Source: Gammaproteobacteria bacterium
GTDB taxonomy: Bacteria; Pseudomonadota; Gammaproteobacteria; Steroidobacterales; Steroidobacteraceae
NCBI GenBank assembly: GCA_027366635.1
Contig: DAHXNE010000073.1
Span: 1 to 58,734, forward strand
Direction of reading: 5' to 3'
Length of the DNA: 58,734 bases
The notes beneath the pieces are model-generated. The model had not been told where the DNA came from. It was given only the letters and a program-made list of their open reading frames with translations, and ran no database searches. Position 1 is the stretch's first letter. Each line of letters opens with the position of its first letter. Made by a program: the position numbers and the translations under genes. Positions 1,285 to 26,654 of this stretch are shown piece after piece.

Positions 1285-2568
1285 ATGTCCTGGGATGGAA
1301 TCGTCTTCATCCACCTGCCTGATCAGAGCGAGGCGGTTCCGGCGGGAAGAATCTCCCTGCTGGAGGAGGGGCTCCAATCCGTAGGTAGCACCTTCGGTTA
1401 TGGCGCCCGATATCTGCAGCGGGCCAACGCGATACCCGTCGACCCTGTAAGTCTGCCGCTGTCGAGCTTACCCGGCGAGGAGCAGCTTTATGAGCCGCCG
1501 GCCGGCCTCGCTCTGTTCGGCGCGATACGTGATGCCGCCCCTGATTTCTGGGGTCGGCGTGTCATCGAAGCAAAGTTGCAGCTGCCGCCCAACTCTGTTC
1601 CGGAATCGACCTATCTTCTCAACGCCGGCACCCATCGTTTCGGTGCTCTGGATTTCAGAGAGAATACCAGCTCCGCGAGCGCCGAGGGCCTGCTGCCGCC
1701 GCTGACCGACCTTCAGTACCTGTTGGAAGCCGCGGATCGCGTGCAAGAAGGTCTGCCGATACCCGCCCGACTGGAAATGCTCTTTCAGGTAGCCAGCCTG
1801 GGTGGAGCGAGGCCGAAGGCCCTCGTGTCGCATGATGGCAAGCAATTTCTCGCGAAATTCCCGGCCAAGAACGACCCATTCGACGTCCCTGCCGTCGAGC
1901 GTGCCTGCCTGGAACTTGCGCGCGCGTGTGGACTGAATGTGCCACGGACCGAGCTGGTACAACTCGCAGACGGTCGGAATGTAATGCTGATCGAGCGGTT
2001 CGACCGGGCCGTTCTGTCAGATGGCAACTGCTCCCGGAAGCAATGCGTCAGTGCTCTGACCATGCTTGGCAAGCACGAGCAGGAATCCCCGGCATCGAGT
2101 TACTCGGAGATCGCCCAGGTGATTTCCGATCGCGGAGTGTCCGGGCACGTGCAGGAGGACCGCGCGGAGCTGTACGCGAGAGTTGCCTTCAATATCCTCA
2201 TTTCAAATGACGACGACCACCTGCGCAACCACGCGTTCATATGGTACCCGCCCGGAAAGGCCTGGCGACTGAGTCCGCTTTACGACGTGGTTCCCCGCCC
2301 GCAAGTATCCCAGGAGCGAAGATTGCACCTGTCGATCGGCCCCCAAGGCAGGAGCGCCACACTCACCAACCTGTTCGAGGCTCGCGGAAGTTTCGGCTTG
2401 CTGAAACCCGAGGCAATCGCAATCATCGGCAGAGTCTCTGCTGCGGTTGGAGAATGGCGCACACATCTGGAATCGGCGGGTGTGAGCCCCGCGCAATGCG
2501 ACCGCATTCAAACTGCATTCCGTAGACCACGCGATATTGGTCTCGACGAGATAACGAAGACGCGGTAG
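1285..2568 (+). CDS. HipA-like serine/threonine kinase toxin
   Basis: A 427-residue protein of the HipA family; E. coli HipA (440 residues) phosphorylates glutamyl-tRNA synthetase and causes dormancy. Visible landmarks are the N-terminal HipA-coupled domain with HRFGALDF (about 117-124), the nucleotide-binding segment ARPKALVSHDGKQFLAKFP (about 175-193), LIERFDR, the catalytic loop ISNDDDHLRNH with acidic residues at 309-311, and the metal-binding SPLYDVVP motif. All kinase landmarks are present and the frame is intact, so it looks active. GAGGAAG just before the ATG is a strong ribosome-binding site and the gene follows the HTH gene by 9 bases. The substrate of this particular branch cannot be told from sequence. 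Confidence 0.9.
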   Translation: MSWDGIVFIHLPDQSEAVPAGRISLLEEGLQSVGSTFGYGARYLQRANAIPVDPVSLPLSSLPGEEQLYEPPAGLALFGAIRDAAPDFWGRRVIEAKLQLPPNSVPESTYLLNAGTHRFGALDFRENTSSASAEGLLPPLTDLQYLLEAADRVQEGLPIPARLEMLFQVASLGGARPKALVSHDGKQFLAKFPAKNDPFDVPAVERACLELARACGLNVPRTELVQLADGRNVMLIERFDRAVLSDGNCSRKQCVSALTMLGKHEQESPASSYSEIAQVISDRGVSGHVQEDRAELYARVAFNILISNDDDHLRNHAFIWYPPGKAWRLSPLYDVVPRPQVSQERRLHLSIGPQGRSATLTNLFEARGSFGLLKPEAIAIIGRVSAAVGEWRTHLESAGVSPAQCDRIQTAFRRPRDIGLDEITKTR

Positions 2569-2661
2569 CAACCTCGTGCCGGGCGCGCGGCTCAGATCAG
2601 TGCTCGCCAACGCCGGGGAATCGGAGCATTGACCGGGCGGAGGCGGTACGTCGCATTTACT

Positions 2662-2900
2662 GGCTCTATTGAAAAACGAGCGGGTTATGCAGTGACGTAG
2701 GGGTTGATGCGGGAGAAGTCGAGCTTGCCTGCGATCATGAAGATGACCATGCGGATGGTACGGAACCGGCCGTACCCGCGGGCCTTGCGTTTGGCAGTGT
2801 GGAAGAGCCCATTGATGGCCTCGAGGAACCCGTTGGTCTGGCGGGAGGTGACCCAGGCGAGGATGCCCTCGAGATGATGAGCCTGGCCATCGTATCTGAT
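2662..2900 (-). pseudogene. Remnant of an ISL3-family transposase (C-terminal end)
   Basis: The minus strand reads HHLEGILAWVTSRQTNGFLE, then AINGLFHTAKRKARGYGRF, then KLDFSRINPYVTA and a TAA stop at 2685-2687. This is the C-terminal DDE_Tnp_ISL3 signature (trailing E of the catalytic triad in the NGFLEAINGL region). Upstream of about 2900 the homologous frame disappears, so only about 70 codons remain. GGCTCTATTGAAAAACGAG at 2662-2680 just beyond the stop may be what is left of the terminal inverted repeat. The element is dead and has no visible second end in the window. Confidence 0.75.
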
Positions 2901-3005
2901 GGGGCTGGACGGCGTTTTGATCAGGTTCGCTGATGGGAGTGGGCCCGAGACCCATCAGGGATCGTGACCACGGCGCGGGTCGTTTCCGCTCCGGATTTCC
3001 TCGTC

Positions 3006-3116
3006 TCAGGTTTCATCGTAAAGCGGCAGCGCAGTCTGCCCGGCCGGGATGGCCTGGGCGGCGAGAGTGGCCTTGCCACTGCCGTCTTTCTGCGAGGTCA
3101 CGGCGATGGGTTTCAA
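3006..3116 (-). pseudogene. Remnant of a ParA-family ATPase N-terminus
   Basis: On the minus strand a short frame starting near 3116 reads LKPIAVTSQKDGSGKATLAAQ before it diverges and stops at 3006. It matches the N-terminus of ParA/Soj partition ATPases (IAVTSQKGGSGKTTLAA), with the deviant Walker A changed to KDGSGKAT: the second Gly has become Asp and the Thr after Lys is Ala. Only 36 codons survive. With the nearby IS tail this suggests decay of a plasmid or integrative element. The fragment is short, so the call relies on the Walker motif and its flanks. Confidence 0.6.
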
Positions 3117-3232
3117 GAAAACTGCCTTCCACGCAGAACGTAAAACATGATTCCATGGAAATCGTGTCCGTGACGCAATATGCCCAATCGGGGCTCCCTG
3201 CCGCTTTCCCCGCTCGAGTGTATACTGGCGCT

Positions 3233-3248
3233 TAGACGTCTAGACGTA
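3233..3248. promoter_or_regulatory. Palindromic operator/promoter of the RHH-PIN toxin-antitoxin operon
   Basis: TAGACGTCTAGACGTA contains two overlapping perfect palindromes, TAGACGTCTA and ACGTCTAGACGT, that is, two direct AGACGT half-sites. It sits about 18 bases before the antitoxin ATG, and a -10-like GTATACT lies immediately upstream at about 3220-3226. Ribbon-helix-helix antitoxins bind such closely spaced palindromic repeats to repress their own operon. Function is inferred from position and symmetry. Confidence 0.55.
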
Positions 3249-3263
3249 ACGATGGGAGCGACC

Positions 3264-3521
3264 ATGGATCAGCCTGTGAGGTGGACCGTCCGGGTTTCCA
3301 AGGACACGGATGTGGCCGTGCGCATGTTCCTGGCCCAGCGCGGCATGAAGAAAGGCGATCTCGCCAAATTCATCGAGGAAGCCGTGCGCTGGCGCGTGCT
3401 CGATCAGACGGTGGGTGAGACCAAGGCGCGCAACACCAAGGTTCCGGTGGCCGACATCGAGGCCGCGATCAATGAAGCGCTGCACACCGTGCGCGCCGAG
3501 CGCTTTGCCGCCCAGCGCTGA
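3264..3521 (+). CDS. Ribbon-helix-helix antitoxin of a PIN toxin pair
   Basis: An 85-residue protein. Residues about 5-40 (WTVRVSKDTDVAVRMFLAQ, then KGDLAKFIEEAVRWRV) look like a ribbon-helix-helix DNA-binding domain: a beta strand with alternating residues, then two helices. The basic C-terminal half would wrap the toxin. I chose ATG 3264 because GGGAG precedes it and the RHH strand starts right after; an in-frame upstream opening from 3180 runs through the operator and is unlikely to be translated. Its TGA overlaps the ATG of the PIN gene by one base, the usual coupling in toxin-antitoxin pairs. Expected roles are blocking the PIN nuclease and repressing the operon at 3233-3248. Confidence 0.8.
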   Translation: MDQPVRWTVRVSKDTDVAVRMFLAQRGMKKGDLAKFIEEAVRWRVLDQTVGETKARNTKVPVADIEAAINEALHTVRAERFAAQR

Positions 3522-4000
3522 TGCGGGCGGTCCTCGACACCAACGTTCTGTGCAGCGCACTGCTGACGCCGGGGGGCTTGACCGATCGGCTCTATCGGGC
3601 CTGGCGGGAAGGGCGCTTCCAGCTGCTGACGAGCGAGGAGCAGCTGGAGGAGTTCCGGCGCGTCACGCGCTATCCGCGCCTCAAGCCCTTCATTGAGCCG
3701 ACGGCTGCAGGCGCGATGCACAACGAGCTGCGGCGCCTCGCGGTGCTCATCGCGAAGCTGCCCATCGTCGACGCCTTGCGCGACCCGGGGGATAATTTTC
3801 TGCTGGCGATGGCGCAGGCCGGAGAGGCCGACGTGCTCGTCACCGGTGATAAGCACGATCTCCTGTCGCTGAAGGCGTTTCAACGCACGCGGATCGTCAC
3901 CGCACGGCAATTCCTGGGCCAGATCGGCGATACGCTTAAGCGCTCGCCGACGCGCAAGGTCGTGGCGGCGCGCCGCAGCAGGCGCAGGACAGCGCGGTAG
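3521..4000 (+). CDS. PIN-domain toxin, COG1569 type (putative endoribonuclease)
   Basis: A 159-residue protein with the PIN nuclease layout of the COG1569 family of putative toxins: first acidic residue in MRAVLDTNVLCSALL (Asp6), middle acidic residues in SEEQLEEFRRV, and the distal acidic cluster in DPGDNFLLAMAQAGEADVLVTGDKHDL. The active-site acids that bind Mg2+ are all present. The tail after about residue 140 is very basic. The gene is translationally coupled to the RHH gene by a TGATG overlap. Family members cleave RNA in a sequence-specific way; the target here is unknown. The pair is intact although surrounded by decayed genes, which fits its addictive nature. Confidence 0.85.
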   Translation: MRAVLDTNVLCSALLTPGGLTDRLYRAWREGRFQLLTSEEQLEEFRRVTRYPRLKPFIEPTAAGAMHNELRRLAVLIAKLPIVDALRDPGDNFLLAMAQAGEADVLVTGDKHDLLSLKAFQRTRIVTARQFLGQIGDTLKRSPTRKVVAARRSRRRTAR

Positions 4001-4155
4001 CGCAGGGACGCCAACTACCATGCCATGTCAGCTCATGGTTTTTCTATCGATCCGCCGCGAGGTGGCCGCGCCGAGGATCAATCTGATGCGATGTCCCGCC
4101 GCGCACCGCGCGGCCCGGACTACTTCCAATTCAAAGCGGGAATTTTACAATCACT

Positions 4156-5292
4156 ATGGCGCGACCCAAGACAGCCAAAAATGACACCGGCGCCAACGTG
4201 GGTTACGAGGCGCAGCTCTGGCAGATGGCCGATGCCCTGCGGGGCAGCGTGGACGCGGCCGAATACAAGCACGTCGTCCTGGGGCTGATCTTTCTCAAGT
4301 ACATCTCAGATGCCTTCGAGGAGCAGCACGCGAAGCTGGAAGCCGAGAAAGCGGGCGGGGCCGATCCCGAGGACCAGGACGAATACCGAGCGCTCTCGAT
4401 CTTCTGGGTGCCGCCGGAAGCGCGCTGGCCGCACCTGAAGGCCCAGGCCCGCCAGAGCACCATCGGCCAGATCGTCGATGAGGCCATGGCCGGCATCGAG
4501 CGGGACAACCCGGCCCTGAAGGGCGTGCTCCCGAAGGACTATGCGCGCCCGGCGCTCGATAAAACCCGCCTGGGGCAGCTGATTGATCTCATCAGCAATA
4601 TCAAAGTCGGCGACGAGGCGAGCCGGGCGAAAGACGTCCTCGGCCGCGTCTATGAGTATTTCCTCTCCCAGTTCGCGAGCGCCGAGGGCAAGAAGGGCGG
4701 GGAGTTTTATACGCCCCGCTGCGTAGTGAAGGTCCTGGTCGAGATGCTGGAGCCCTATCGCGGACGGGTCTACGACCCCTGCTGCGGTTCTTCGGGCATG
4801 TTCGTGCAGTCGGTCGAGTTCATCCGCGCCCATGCCAATGGGAACGGGAACGGCGGCAAGGCCAAAGCGGATATCTCGATTTATGGCCAGGAGTTCAATT
4901 ACACGACCTGGCGGCTCGCCAAGATGAATCTCGCCATCCGCGGCATCGACGGACAGATCGGCCACGGCGACACGTTCCACAATGATCGCCATCCGGACCT
5001 GAAGGCGGACTTCATCCTGGCGAATCCCCCCTTCAATATCTCCGACTGGGGCGGGGAGCGGCTGAGAGAAGACAGGCGCTGGCAGTACGGTACGCCGCCC
5101 GCGGGTAATGCGAACTTCGCCTGGGTGCAGCACATCGTCCATCACTTAGCGCCGGCCGGCGTGGCCGGCTTCGTGCTGGCAAATGGTTCGATGTCCTCGA
5201 ATCACTCCGGTGAGGGAGAGATTCGCAAGAACCTGATCGAGGCTGATCTGGTCGATTGCATGGTGGCGCTCCCCGGGCAGCTCTTTTACTGA
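4156..5292 (+). pseudogene. hsdM: 3'-truncated type I restriction-modification DNA methyltransferase subunit M
   Basis: 378 residues of an HsdM adenine-N6 methyltransferase. The N-terminal HsdM_N helical domain (about 10-150) is present, followed by the Rossmann methylase domain with the AdoMet motif [11 protein letters not shown] (about 206-216) and the catalytic motif NPPF (291-294). The protein stops at [14 protein letters not shown], exactly where intact HsdM (about 490-550 residues) continues with the FYSTQIP-type segment, so about 120-150 C-terminal residues needed for contact with HsdS are missing. No hsdS or hsdR follows. The most economical reading is a deletion that fused the gene to unrelated DNA at about 5290. 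A solitary shortened methylase cannot be excluded but would lack target recognition. Confidence 0.85.
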
Positions 5293-23586: not shown

Positions 23587-24495
23587 ATGACCAGCGTCGA
23601 CACCAGCCTGCCGGTCCACTCGCGCAAAGAGTTTCTGCAGGCACTACGGCAGATCCTGCGGCCGATCGTCAGGCTGATGATCCGATCGGGCATCCGCTAC
23701 GACGAGTTCATCGACGTGGCGCGTGGCGCGTACGTCGAAACCACGATTCGGGATGTGGACAAAGACAGCCCACGGCCGACTCGTGATCAGGTCGCGTGGA
23801 CTACCGGGATCCCGCGGGACCGGGTGGATCATTACATCGATGACTACGAGCCGCTGCCGCCAGGAGATCGAATTGCCGCCCGCGTCGAGACCGAGACACT
23901 TCACAGATGGTACACCGACCCCCGATATCTCGGACCTACCGGGTCTCCTATGGAACTCGAGTTCGACGCGCCTGACGGAATAAGCTTCAAAAAGCTCGTG
24001 GCGGAGACTGACGCGCAAGCAGACGCCGGATTGATCCTTGATCAGCTATTGCGAGCAAAATCCGTCCTCCGCTCAGAGGACAATCGTATCCGGGCGCTGT
24101 CGCGCTTTCTCTTATGGCCGGACAAGGGGCAAGCGCGCATCCACTGTCTAGGTACCTCATTGGCGCATATGATCGAAACCCTTGAGCACAACATAAACTC
24201 TGGCGCTGCTGAGAACAAACGTCTTGAACGCACTGTATCCGCTGATCGAGGAATCCCGGATCGACAGCTGCCGAACTTCCAAGAATTCGCTCGAGAGCGT
24301 ACAGAACAATTCCTAAATGACATCGACGATTGGCTTGGCCAGCACCTTGACCCGACTCTTGATCAGACAGATCAGCGCGTCGAAATCGGCGTGAACGTAT
24401 TCCTGTACGTTGAACCACCGGCTGATCTAACCACCTCGGCAACCTTGGCACAGTCCACTAGGAAATTACCCCACCGAAGCGGCGAGCGTGGTTAA
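23587..24495 (+). CDS. DUF6502-like protein, first of two tandem paralogues
   Basis: A 302-residue protein resembling DUF6502, a family of unknown function. The N-terminus, ALRQILRPIVRLMIRSGIRYDEFIDVARGAYVE, is followed by RPTRDQVAWTTGIPRDRVDHYI, which looks like a helix-turn-helix with the pattern of an HTH regulator. The middle (about 85-185) has LHRWYTDPRYLGPTGSPMELEF and a helical region; near the C-terminus there is RVEIGVNVFLYVEPP. It starts 3 bases after dgt without room for its own promoter. The first 350 bases match the GC-rich neighbourhood; later parts are less GC-rich. A regulatory role is inference from the HTH-like segment. Confidence 0.7.
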   Translation: MTSVDTSLPVHSRKEFLQALRQILRPIVRLMIRSGIRYDEFIDVARGAYVETTIRDVDKDSPRPTRDQVAWTTGIPRDRVDHYIDDYEPLPPGDRIAARVETETLHRWYTDPRYLGPTGSPMELEFDAPDGISFKKLVAETDAQADAGLILDQLLRAKSVLRSEDNRIRALSRFLLWPDKGQARIHCLGTSLAHMIETLEHNINSGAAENKRLERTVSADRGIPDRQLPNFQEFARERTEQFLNDIDDWLGQHLDPTLDQTDQRVEIGVNVFLYVEPPADLTTSATLAQSTRKLPHRSGERG

Positions 24496-25364
24496 TGACC
24501 TCCAGAAAGGCTCACGGCTGCCTATTGCTAGCGTTACGGCACATCCTTCGACCTCTGGCGCGCATACTGCTCCGCATTGGAATTCGCTTCGACGAATTCG
24601 AAGCGATTTCCCAGGAAGTGTTTATTGAGAGCGCAATTCGAGATTACGCCCACGCAAGCGTACCGTCGCGAGCCCGCATTGCGGCACTCACCGGGCTGAA
24701 CAACCGAAAAGTCAACGAACACATCGATGGCAACAAACAAATCCCCGCGAGGGAGCCGACGCATACGTCGCTCCTGATTGAAGTACTACAGAAGTGGCAC
24801 ACTGTTCCAGGTTATGGCGGACCGTACGGAATACCGCTAGAGTTGGAATTCGAAACGCCAGCGGATCGGTGTATTCGAAATCTGATCGCTCTTGTAGACC
24901 CGAACGCAAGCCCTGAAAAGGTCCTGGGGGAACTGCTCCGATCTGGCGCCGTACTACGCGCCAGCGAGAAACGCTTTCGCCCTGCTTCCCGCTTTTTGAT
25001 GTCCACAGACCCAGCTTCGCCAAGGTTGATTGAGCGATTCGGCATGAAGGTGTCACAGCTCGCAACAACCCTAGAATACAACATGGATCCCGCGCACACG
25101 CAAAAGCGATTGGATCGACAGGTTTATGCCGATCGTGGTCTGCCGCTTGATCTCGTTCCAGCGTTTGAGAGCTATGCGCGCGCGAAGTCAGCCCGTTTTT
25201 TAACGGAGCTGGATAATTGGTTGACCTCGCATTGCGAATTCAGCCCAGAAACCCCGAGCAATTGCGACCATCGTCAAATCGATACGGGCGTAAACGTATT
25301 CCTGTACATAGAGTCCTCAGGGGTAAAAGAAGAGCCTCTGGCATCCCTGCTCAGCAATACTTAA
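24495..25364 (+). CDS. DUF6502-like protein, second tandem paralogue
   Basis: A 289-residue paralogue of the preceding protein. Shared blocks are LRHILRPLARILLRIGIRFDEFEAISQEVFIESAIRD, the HTH-like SRARIAALTGLNNRKVNEHI, the W-HTVPGYGGPYGIPLELEFE block, LGELLRSGAVLR and the closing DTGVNVFLYIES. Its ATG overlaps the TAA of the first gene by one base. Base composition is visibly less GC-rich than in the genes to either side, and codons such as AAA, GAA and CAA are frequent. The two proteins have diverged a lot, so the duplication is old or they arrived as a pair. Function unknown. Confidence 0.7.
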   Translation: MTSRKAHGCLLLALRHILRPLARILLRIGIRFDEFEAISQEVFIESAIRDYAHASVPSRARIAALTGLNNRKVNEHIDGNKQIPAREPTHTSLLIEVLQKWHTVPGYGGPYGIPLELEFETPADRCIRNLIALVDPNASPEKVLGELLRSGAVLRASEKRFRPASRFLMSTDPASPRLIERFGMKVSQLATTLEYNMDPAHTQKRLDRQVYADRGLPLDLVPAFESYARAKSARFLTELDNWLTSHCEFSPETPSNCDHRQIDTGVNVFLYIESSGVKEEPLASLLSNT

Positions 25365-25576: not shown

Positions 25577-26590
25577 ATGCCTCGGTCGAAGCAGTTCCTT
25601 AAGCGTGGTCTGTCGGTCTCAGCGGTTGCGGCTTTTGTTGGCGTCGCTGTGGCAGGGACGACCTACGCCGCCACCTTGGCGGTAGGGCCGATTGAGCAGG
25701 TCAACCTCAAAGCATCGACACTTGTGGTGCTGGGTCAGACGTACCATATCGATGCAGCAACGGCGATTAAGAATCGGGCTGGCGCGGCAGTTGCACTGAG
25801 TGCCCTCGCACCGAACACGTTGGTTGCGATCGATGGTACTGAAACTGCGTCAGGCCAAACGGCAGTGAAAAGCGTAGTGAGTCGACCCGAGATCGACGTA
25901 CCGGGCGCGACATCGTTGCTCGTTACGGGCGTGGTCTCCGCAGAATCCCCGACTGGGCAAATCAAGATCGGTCGACTGACCGTCGACATCGTCTCCACTC
26001 TAACCAGCGACACACCGAAGTTCCAGGTAGGAAACTTGGTGGAGGTCACTGGAACGCAACCGAATCTAGCCGGTCTTTTCCTTGCCCAGAGCATCACTCC
26101 GATTGACGGCCTCTCGGGCAGCGGCGCCGCGGTAATCAATGCCGGCCTCTCAGGCAGCGGTGCAGCCGACGCCCGCGCACCAATTGGTGGTCTCTCGGGC
26201 AGCGGTGCAGCCGACGCCCGCGCACCAATTGGCGGCCTCTCGGGCAGCGGCGCTGCGGTAACCAATGCCGGCCTTTCAGGCAGCGGTGCAGCCGACGCCC
26301 GCGCACCAATTGGTGGCCTCTCGGGCAGCGGTGCAGCCGACGCCCGCGCACCAATTGGCGGCCTCTCGGGCAGCGGCGCTGCGGTAACCAATGCCGGCCT
26401 CTCAGGCAGCGGTGCAGCCGACGCCCGCGCACCAATTGGTGGCCTCTCAGGCAGCGGTGCAGCCGACGCCCGCGCACCAATTGGTGGTCTCTCGGGCAGC
26501 GGTGCAGCCGACGCCCGCGCACCAATTGGCGGCCTCTCGGGCAGCGGCGCTGCGGTAACCAATGCCGGCCTCTCAGGCAGCGGCAAGTAA
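25577..26590 (+). CDS. Secreted DUF5666-like protein with C-terminal GLSGSG tandem repeats
   Basis: A 337-residue protein. A signal peptide with hydrophobic core SVSAVAAFVGVAVAGTTYAA covers about residues 12-32. Residues 33-177 look like two DUF5666-type small beta domains (VGPIEQVNLKASTLVVLGQTYHID and VTGVVSAESPTGQIKIGRLTVDI). Residues 178-337 are a tandem array: 12 copies of GLSGSG in units A (GLSGSGAADARAPIG) and B (GLSGSGAAVTNA or VINA) in the order BAA BAA BAAA B, ending in GLSGSGK. The array is low-complexity, rich in Gly, Ser and Ala, and probably unstructured. GGGAG precedes ATG 25577. Export to the periplasm or cell surface is expected. Function unknown. Confidence 0.75.
   Translation: MPRSKQFLKRGLSVSAVAAFVGVAVAGTTYAATLAVGPIEQVNLKASTLVVLGQTYHIDAATAIKNRAGAAVALSALAPNTLVAIDGTETASGQTAVKSVVSRPEIDVPGATSLLVTGVVSAESPTGQIKIGRLTVDIVSTLTSDTPKFQVGNLVEVTGTQPNLAGLFLAQSITPIDGLSGSGAAVINAGLSGSGAADARAPIGGLSGSGAADARAPIGGLSGSGAAVTNAGLSGSGAADARAPIGGLSGSGAADARAPIGGLSGSGAAVTNAGLSGSGAADARAPIGGLSGSGAADARAPIGGLSGSGAADARAPIGGLSGSGAAVTNAGLSGSGK
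26108..26587 (+). repeat. Intragenic tandem repeat (minisatellite), 36- and 45-bp units
   Basis: 480 bases made of 45-bp A units and 36-bp B units, arranged as two 126-bp BAA superunits, one BAAA superunit (171 bp), one B and a final 21 bp. Units are almost identical at the DNA level, with silent differences such as GGTGGT/GGTGGC/GGCGGC at the unit joints and CTCTCG/CTCTCA/CTTTCA in the GLS codons. All unit lengths are multiples of three, so gain or loss of units keeps the frame. Near identity points to recent slippage or recombination. Confidence 0.95.
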
Positions 26591-26618
26591 TAGGCGCCGG
26601 CCGACCGTAGAGCCATCA

Positions 26619-26654
26619 AAACGCCGGCATCTCCTTCGGGGGGTGCCGGCGTTT
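26619..26654. terminator. Bidirectional intrinsic terminator
   Basis: An 11-bp perfect stem, AAACGCCGGCA (26619-26629) with TGCCGGCGTTT (26644-26654), flanked by T-rich sequence on the plus side and by TTTTGATGG when read on the minus strand. It lies between the convergent repeat-protein and acyl-CoA ligase genes and can stop both transcripts. Confidence 0.85.

Follow-up and report, generated by a model that had tools for sequence, protein, structure and literature searches.

Tandem hexapeptide arrays on probably exported DUF5666 proteins encoded beside DUF6502 genes

Introduction

Tandem-repeat tails are common. The abalone egg receptor VERL is built of tandem repeats, and the repeats of RTX proteins follow the nonapeptide consensus GGxGxDxUx. 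RTX proteins resemble the family described here in having Gly-rich short tandem repeats on exported proteins, and some relatives of our array carry nonapeptides of the SIGGGDSPL type. However, the units of our array are 12 and 15 residues long and their core contains no Asp, which places them outside the RTX group. The closest described kind that we found is that of the Periscope proteins. According to two reports, these bacterial proteins are exported and vary in length through intragenic tandem repeats, which are folded domains (SHIRT) that project a ligand-binding domain (PMC8201768, PMC9704523). The units of the present family are mostly 8–15 residues long, and their hexapeptide is not the same from one related species to the next. 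VERL, which co-evolves with sperm lysin (PMC2704960), provides an analogy for the block change of a repeated recognition motif, although this is an unrelated eukaryotic system.

The literature searched yielded no described function for DUF6502, and its available portions contained only incidental mentions of DUF5666. In the same portions, the string GIGGTG occurred in a review of antimicrobial peptides, which we judged unrelated, and a search on concerted evolution of intragenic repeats in bacteria returned nothing, by title, on a DUF6502-DUF5666 family. The array-bearing DUF5666 family is large, bacterial and apparently undescribed. Intragenic repeats in exported proteins are a known kind; within the scope of these searches, the new elements are the locked hexapeptide specific to each lineage and the pairing with DUF6502.

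The array gene and its neighbours

The window is the whole stretch of DNA that was analysed (58,734 nucleotides). The features of the locus are as follows.

23587..24495, + strand: first DUF6502 gene, 302 aa (PF20112, 76.9 bits, cut-off 27)
24495..25364, + strand: second DUF6502 gene, 289 aa, directly upstream of the array gene (PF20112, 69.9 bits, cut-off 27)
25577..26590, + strand: ORF of a probably exported DUF5666 (PF18914) protein with a C-terminal hexapeptide array, 337 aa
25577..25669, + strand: probable Sec signal peptide (MPRSKQFLKRGLSVSAVAAFVGVAVAGTTYA, 31 aa), read from the sequence
25685..25858, + strand: DUF5666 domain, top-scoring stretch (Pfam; own-genome family search)
26108..26587, + strand: array of 12 GLSGSG hexapeptides, BAABAABAAAB plus GLSGSGK (sequence; Tandem Repeats Finder)

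The array protein belongs to the DUF5666 family (45 bits against a Pfam gathering cut-off of 27), and the family search of the source genome found no second DUF5666 match up to E 10. Its probable signal peptide was recognised by eye, from a basic start, a hydrophobic stretch and TYA-A; on this reading the protein is probably exported, as had been supposed. The original prediction also described an in-frame coding minisatellite in the order BAA BAA BAAA B with a final GLSGSGK, and the unit lengths at 26108-26587 (36, 45, 45, 36, 45, 45, 36, 45, 45, 45, 36 and 21 bp) confirmed it. The hexapeptides are separated by spacers of six (AAVTNA or AAVINA) or nine (AADARAPIG) residues. At the DNA level, the seven A units have a mean identity of 0.958 (minimum 0.911) and the four B units one of 0.972 (minimum 0.944), and the 12 cores show four variant codons, with every difference synonymous. 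Tandem Repeats Finder assigned scores of 551, 746 and 615 to periods of 45, 126 and 171, respectively, and the runner-up array elsewhere in the window scored 68. The proposed duplication of a BAA superunit is borne out by the unit order. A degenerate DNA pattern covering GLSGSG had 31 matches in the source genome, 12 of them within the array, and none of the 18 other fetched stretches with this pattern contained an ORF encoding at least three copies of the motif.

Both upstream neighbours are DUF6502 proteins by their Pfam scores. An AlphaFold model of the second one had a mean pLDDT of 49.9 and was well predicted only at residues 91-160 (blocks of 69-89), which form a helix-helix-helix-strand-strand arrangement. 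A Foldseek search with the model gave no PDB match at E 0.001 (best E 0.087), and many of the weak matches are, judging from their names, presumably winged-helix proteins. The second DUF6502 protein is thus possibly a winged-helix DNA-binding protein according to the model. Two DUF6502 genes precede the array gene also in other loci of the genus (e.g. L034, L192 and L194). In the window, an AMP-binding enzyme gene converges on the array gene from the opposite side, and the DUF6502 pair is preceded by an HD-domain gene that we take to be dgt-like. We assume the surroundings in the window's family to be of an aroK-aroB-dgt-like type, and a presumed DNA ligase-like gene lies near the array locus in L108 and L116. 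Since the surrounding genes differ between families, the DUF6502-DUF5666 pair looks like a conserved unit. Indeed, among the 87 loci with at least 300 bp of upstream sequence, 83 had a DUF6502 ORF directly upstream, on the same strand and within 700 bp. The exceptions are L033 of the window's genus, where a transposase-like ORF (3460-4605), recognised from its sequence, separates DUF6502 from the DUF5666 array gene, L154 (DUF6502 downstream), L182 (DUF6502 convergent) and L152, whose fetched stretch contains no DUF6502.

Searches of other databases gave little. Three proteins had no PADLOC match at E 0.1 and hence no assignment to anti-phage defence, no relative of solved structure was found by sequence at E 1, the best PHROG match (E 0.021) was a function-unassigned entry of no use, and Rfam gave no match. 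In a plasmid search, DUF6502 had no match and the array protein had two weak ones in unrelated bacteria.

Distribution and layout of the arrays

With the part before the array as a query, matches were obtained in 26 of 60 genomes, the source genome included. The gene recurs in other species of the window's genus, where it encodes different motifs (GVSGGG, GVDGGG, GIEGGG, GIKGSG, GVEGSG, GIRGTG and GIAGTG). A profile built from 18 DUF5666 domains of array proteins matched 203 of the 371 genomes of the order at E 1e-5, long DUF5666 proteins included, and seven of 249 genomes drawn from the phylum. DUF6502 was present in 248 of the 371 genomes of the order versus 14 of the 249 from the phylum; these tallies count the window's own genome. 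We compared 108 related loci of the order, consisting of 100 fetched regions and eight added loci, the window among them. All had a DUF5666 match, and 106 carried at least three copies of a short motif, mostly their own, before or after DUF5666, a share that holds for this type of protein only because the regions were picked non-randomly from better-scoring places and the profile came from array proteins. The two remaining loci, L131 and L181, both end at contig ends. The GLSGSG array on a DUF5666 protein is real, but it is not a local oddity; it represents one version of an order-wide family with DUF6502 neighbours, to which the window locus belongs by its tandem hexapeptides beside DUF5666 and the DUF6502 gene directly upstream.

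The usual form of the motif across the loci is small-[ILVM]-x-G-small-[G/D/S]. Arrays are found at either end of the DUF5666 domain, with loose spacers: our script labelled 63 as C-terminal (behind the domain; the window's family and many others) and 45 as N-terminal (after the signal peptide and ahead of the domain; genus g7 and some others), a few of these labels being doubtful (e.g. L127, L131 and L188). Unit length elsewhere in the family ranges from 6 to more than 20 residues and varies within and between species, and a 24-bp period is regular in many arrays.

The order also contains long DUF5666 proteins. These share with the window protein the PF18914 profile and, in most cases, a related hexapeptide and an upstream DUF6502 gene, but they have 328–655 aa (some are cut) and no long array, whereas the window protein is shorter than most of them, shows no lipobox and has 12 C-terminal copies. 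Counted by eye, DUF6502 lies directly upstream in 18 of 22 long ORFs (from 19 regions of the order), and 17 of the 22 contain a single related hexapeptide (GIQGSG, GIDAGG, GIGRTG, GISGNG and alike) within the first 150 residues, in most cases after a lipobox-like Cys and ahead of the domain. Outside the order, four of the seven DUF5666 matches have two to seven GIGGTG-type copies ahead of the domain, three of them (L215, L219 and L220, not L218) with DUF6502 directly upstream; L214, L216 and L217 have no such copies. Most simply, a GIGGTG-like element ahead of DUF5666 would be ancestral and would have been amplified later in this order. We also considered a genome-wide address common to all DUF5666 proteins of one cell. 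This idea was rejected, since the motifs of array protein and long paralog differ within a genome (GISGSG and GIQGSG in G005, GINSGD and GIDAGG in G349, GIDGSS and GISGNG in G331).

Copy number

The source genome is incomplete (127 contigs, 86.6% complete), and the exact copy number of 12 in the window may be an assembly estimate. A contig end cuts 49 of the 108 array ORFs (28 at the 3′ side of C-terminal arrays, 20 at the 5′ side of N-terminal ones, and one with a doubtful label) and nine more contain gaps, 58 in total. Therefore, copy numbers from draft genomes, that of the window included, are unreliable. The arrays cause many draft contigs to break at the DUF6502-DUF5666 locus, which is badly represented in assemblies as a result. 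Between species, each represented by one genome, copy number nevertheless differs within one genus: L034 has nine copies (complete) and L033, truncated at a contig end, 11 or more; L097 has 12 (complete), and L100 and L013, truncated likewise, have no fewer than 15 and 27, respectively. Length variation was thus supported at the level of species, and the suspicion of an assembly artefact proved justified for copy number but not for the existence of the arrays.

Selection on the hexapeptide

In 58 arrays of constant period, with every unit taken from first to last, the first six unit residues showed 385 synonymous and 57 nonsynonymous variants (N/S per site 0.054), and the rest of the unit 225 and 319 (0.535). 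Several of these arrays are in a shifted register, and in them the core need not coincide with the first six residues; one array, L118, is read out of frame downstream of a gap (0 synonymous, 1 nonsynonymous). A looser count of 96 arrays, with units chosen by similarity and thus favouring the core, gave 0.058 for the core versus 0.476 for the rest. Between units of the 58 arrays, the median core amino-acid identity was 1.000 and the median third-position identity 0.59. Third-position identity was below 0.6 in 29 of the 58, and 22 of these 29 had a core amino-acid identity of at least 0.95; in L130, L135 and L141, third-position identities of 0.34-0.37 accompanied a core identity of 1.000. The motif lock is not absolute, because the other seven of the 29 fell below 0.95 (e.g. 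L149, 0.833; L184, 0.867). The window array has a third-position identity of 0.74, slightly higher than the median of all arrays (0.59) and that of the C-terminal ones (0.69). The near-identity of units at the DNA level, noted for the window, therefore stands there and fails as a general rule, since many relatives are close to synonymous saturation yet identical in amino acids. This combination indicates that selection maintains the hexapeptide, in addition to any effect of recent duplication. Judged from these sequence comparisons, the exact hexapeptide is shown to be kept by strong purifying selection at the protein level in many arrays, with the spacers drifting.

Motif change between relatives

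The window's genus has 17 different cores among 22 loci and genus g7 has 23 among 36. Where two loci share at least 0.70 identity in the DUF5666 domain, the core was the same in three of 15 pairs in the window's genus and in eight of 25 in g7. G084 and G085, with domains 99% identical, have GITGSG in 13 of 13 units (an array cut by a contig end) and GINGSG in 17 of 17 units, respectively; uniformity was judged here from counts of all units, as exact-match unit lists are no test of it. Comparisons of this kind show that, as far as sequences tell, the motif often changes as a block between relatives. G317 and G056 have the motifs GIDAGG and GISGGD although their domains are 94% and their flanking DNA 89-92% identical; their adjacent DUF6502 proteins are 74% and the farther ones 79% identical. 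From about 1440 to 3890, the DNA of L130 aligns poorly or not at all with that of L135, with flanks about 90% identical, and the divergent tract of G056 and G317 (about 2.4 kb) comprises part of the farther DUF6502 gene, the nearer DUF6502 gene and the array. Both arrays are old by their third positions, and the block change is therefore best read as a regional replacement and not as homogenisation. In at least this pair, recombination appears to have exchanged the region that contains it. In other pairs, the motif may have changed by the spread of a variant unit.

Mantel tests compared motif similarity with that of the neighbouring proteins, with core motifs set by hand for 14 loci (and for one more in the DUF6502 column test), L113 dropped, and permutation p-values that keep some effect of relatedness. 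In g7 (17 loci), the motif followed the adjacent DUF6502 (0.75; 0.64 given the domain, p 0.0005, 2000 permutations), whereas its correlation with the domain was 0.52 alone (p 0.001) and 0.06 given DUF6502 (p 0.32), L127 and L188 being dropped from the domain tests. With the domain and the second DUF6502 held, the value for DUF6502 was 0.59 (p 0.0005, 13 loci). These 17 loci are those with an adjacent DUF6502 among 36 with a core; the others are mostly cut by contig ends and hence missing non-randomly. In the window's genus, the motif-DUF6502 value was 0.16 given the domain (p 0.039) and 0.14 with the second DUF6502 also held (p 0.12). Over all 79 loci, where the registers of the loci not set by hand were used as assigned and without a one-by-one check, it was 0.12 given the domain (p 0.02), versus 0.09 for the domain given DUF6502 (p 0.06). 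With the second DUF6502 also held (31 loci), the adjacent DUF6502 gave 0.09 (p 0.14) and the second one itself 0.24 (p 0.002). No DUF6502 column tracked the motif beyond chance in 19 loci (maximum 0.40, permuted 95% point 0.54). Co-evolution of motif and DUF6502 is thus a lead from sequence comparison.

Possible function of the array

The gene would produce a Sec-exported DUF5666 domain with a long tail displaying 12 copies of a hexapeptide, its export resting on the signal peptide, and it belongs to a DUF6502-DUF5666 gene pair in which most related species have a hexapeptide of their own. We tentatively favour, without giving it even odds, a tail that acts outside the cytoplasm as a multivalent linear-motif ligand or by self-association, with DUF6502 as a winged-helix regulator in cis. 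Avidity would reward identical copies while the exact array length would matter little, and unequal recombination between units would change copy number without frameshift. The DUF6502 protein, judged from its model, would regulate its own operon in cis. The variation of unit length within and between species favours a linear motif over a regular solenoid, and exact copies with free spacing would fit avidity binding or self-association better than a rigid solenoid. Motif uniformity could instead serve packing of repeat against repeat rather than binding. The motif is kept through near-saturated synonymous change in many arrays, yet differs between relatives at up to 99% domain identity. Such a lock within arrays together with change between relatives points to a demanding binding partner or to a self-assembly code. 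DUF5666 and DUF6502, both unstudied domain families, gain a testable link, and the many natural motif variants are ready-made swap experiments.

The hexapeptide might alternatively serve as an identity tag in an arms race. DUF6502 and the array would then be an exchangeable cassette whose hexapeptide is read by a co-evolving partner, with diversifying selection swapping the block, for instance in kin recognition or in receptor variation against phages or predators. The strong correlation of the g7 motif with the adjacent DUF6502, and not with the domain once DUF6502 is held, and the tract of about 2.4 kb from DUF6502 to array that differs between G056 and G317 within conserved flanks are as expected from such a cassette. 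However, the g7 motif also correlates with the domain unless DUF6502 is controlled for, DUF6502 has a weak effect in the window's genus and over the 79 loci, and no single DUF6502 column is significant. The g7 array lies between DUF6502 and the domain, so that shared recombination tracts can explain the link, and no export signal was seen in DUF6502, which makes its direct contact with the mature tail unlikely. We therefore regard this explanation as unlikely, and slightly more doubtful still is its complete form, a name-tag system in which the cassette exports a lineage-specific hexapeptide that is locked by a partner, replaced as a block with DUF6502, and marks self or escapes phages or predators. 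About as unlikely as the general identity tag is a structural or disordered spacer, a flexible or self-packing tail whose composition counts rather than its exact motif. The spacers are indeed loose in length and sequence, the motif is Gly/Ser-rich, and an AlphaFold model of the window protein from four sequences was of low confidence (mean pLDDT 38; uninformative and left unused), but an exact hexapeptide maintained through near-saturated synonymous change is not expected of a mere spacer.

The same observation makes it improbable that the arrays are neutral minisatellites, uniform just through recent duplication and gene conversion. The window units, averaging 96–97% identity in a superunit pattern that shows duplication, and the almost perfectly uniform array of L116 (third-position identity 0.98) agree with neutrality, and the window alone, with its four synonymous variant codons, offers few differences; for the family, however, neutrality is contradicted by the 22 of 58 arrays with diverged third positions and conserved cores and by the low core N/S. 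A function at the DNA level, with the array as a series of sites to which the neighbouring DUF6502 protein binds, would suit a putative DNA-binding neighbour in nearly all loci and the regular 24-bp period, but synonymous positions of core codons are free to vary in many arrays and unit length varies, and we give this reading very little weight. That the arrays are an assembly artefact is scarcely credible: frequent contig-end cuts and N gaps and the incomplete source genome may raise the suspicion, but arrays occur in many genomes with conserved flanking genes, and the single-contig genomes of L115, L116 and L117 are gap-free in the gene, a fourth, that of L182, having a gap in it.

Other features of the locus

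In L097, L108, L116, L134, L171 and L180, DUF6502 genes occur on both sides of the array gene, the downstream copy being convergent. The source genome has a further DUF6502 gene with a weaker second DUF6502 match adjoining it (contig C53, 4.2 kb; L266, 1492-3444), and no DUF5666 match beside it on that contig. An antisense frame of 294 aa with PLPERP repeats (25735-26619, − strand) overlies the array and is a putative ORF only, being accounted for by periodic repeats without stops; the arrays of relatives are likewise overlain by long antisense frames. Between the convergent array and AMP-binding genes, a perfect 11-bp inverted repeat with a 14-base loop (26619-26654; AAACGCCGGCA / TGCCGGCGTTT), read by eye and absent from a scan with a loop limit of 8, is perhaps a two-way terminator.
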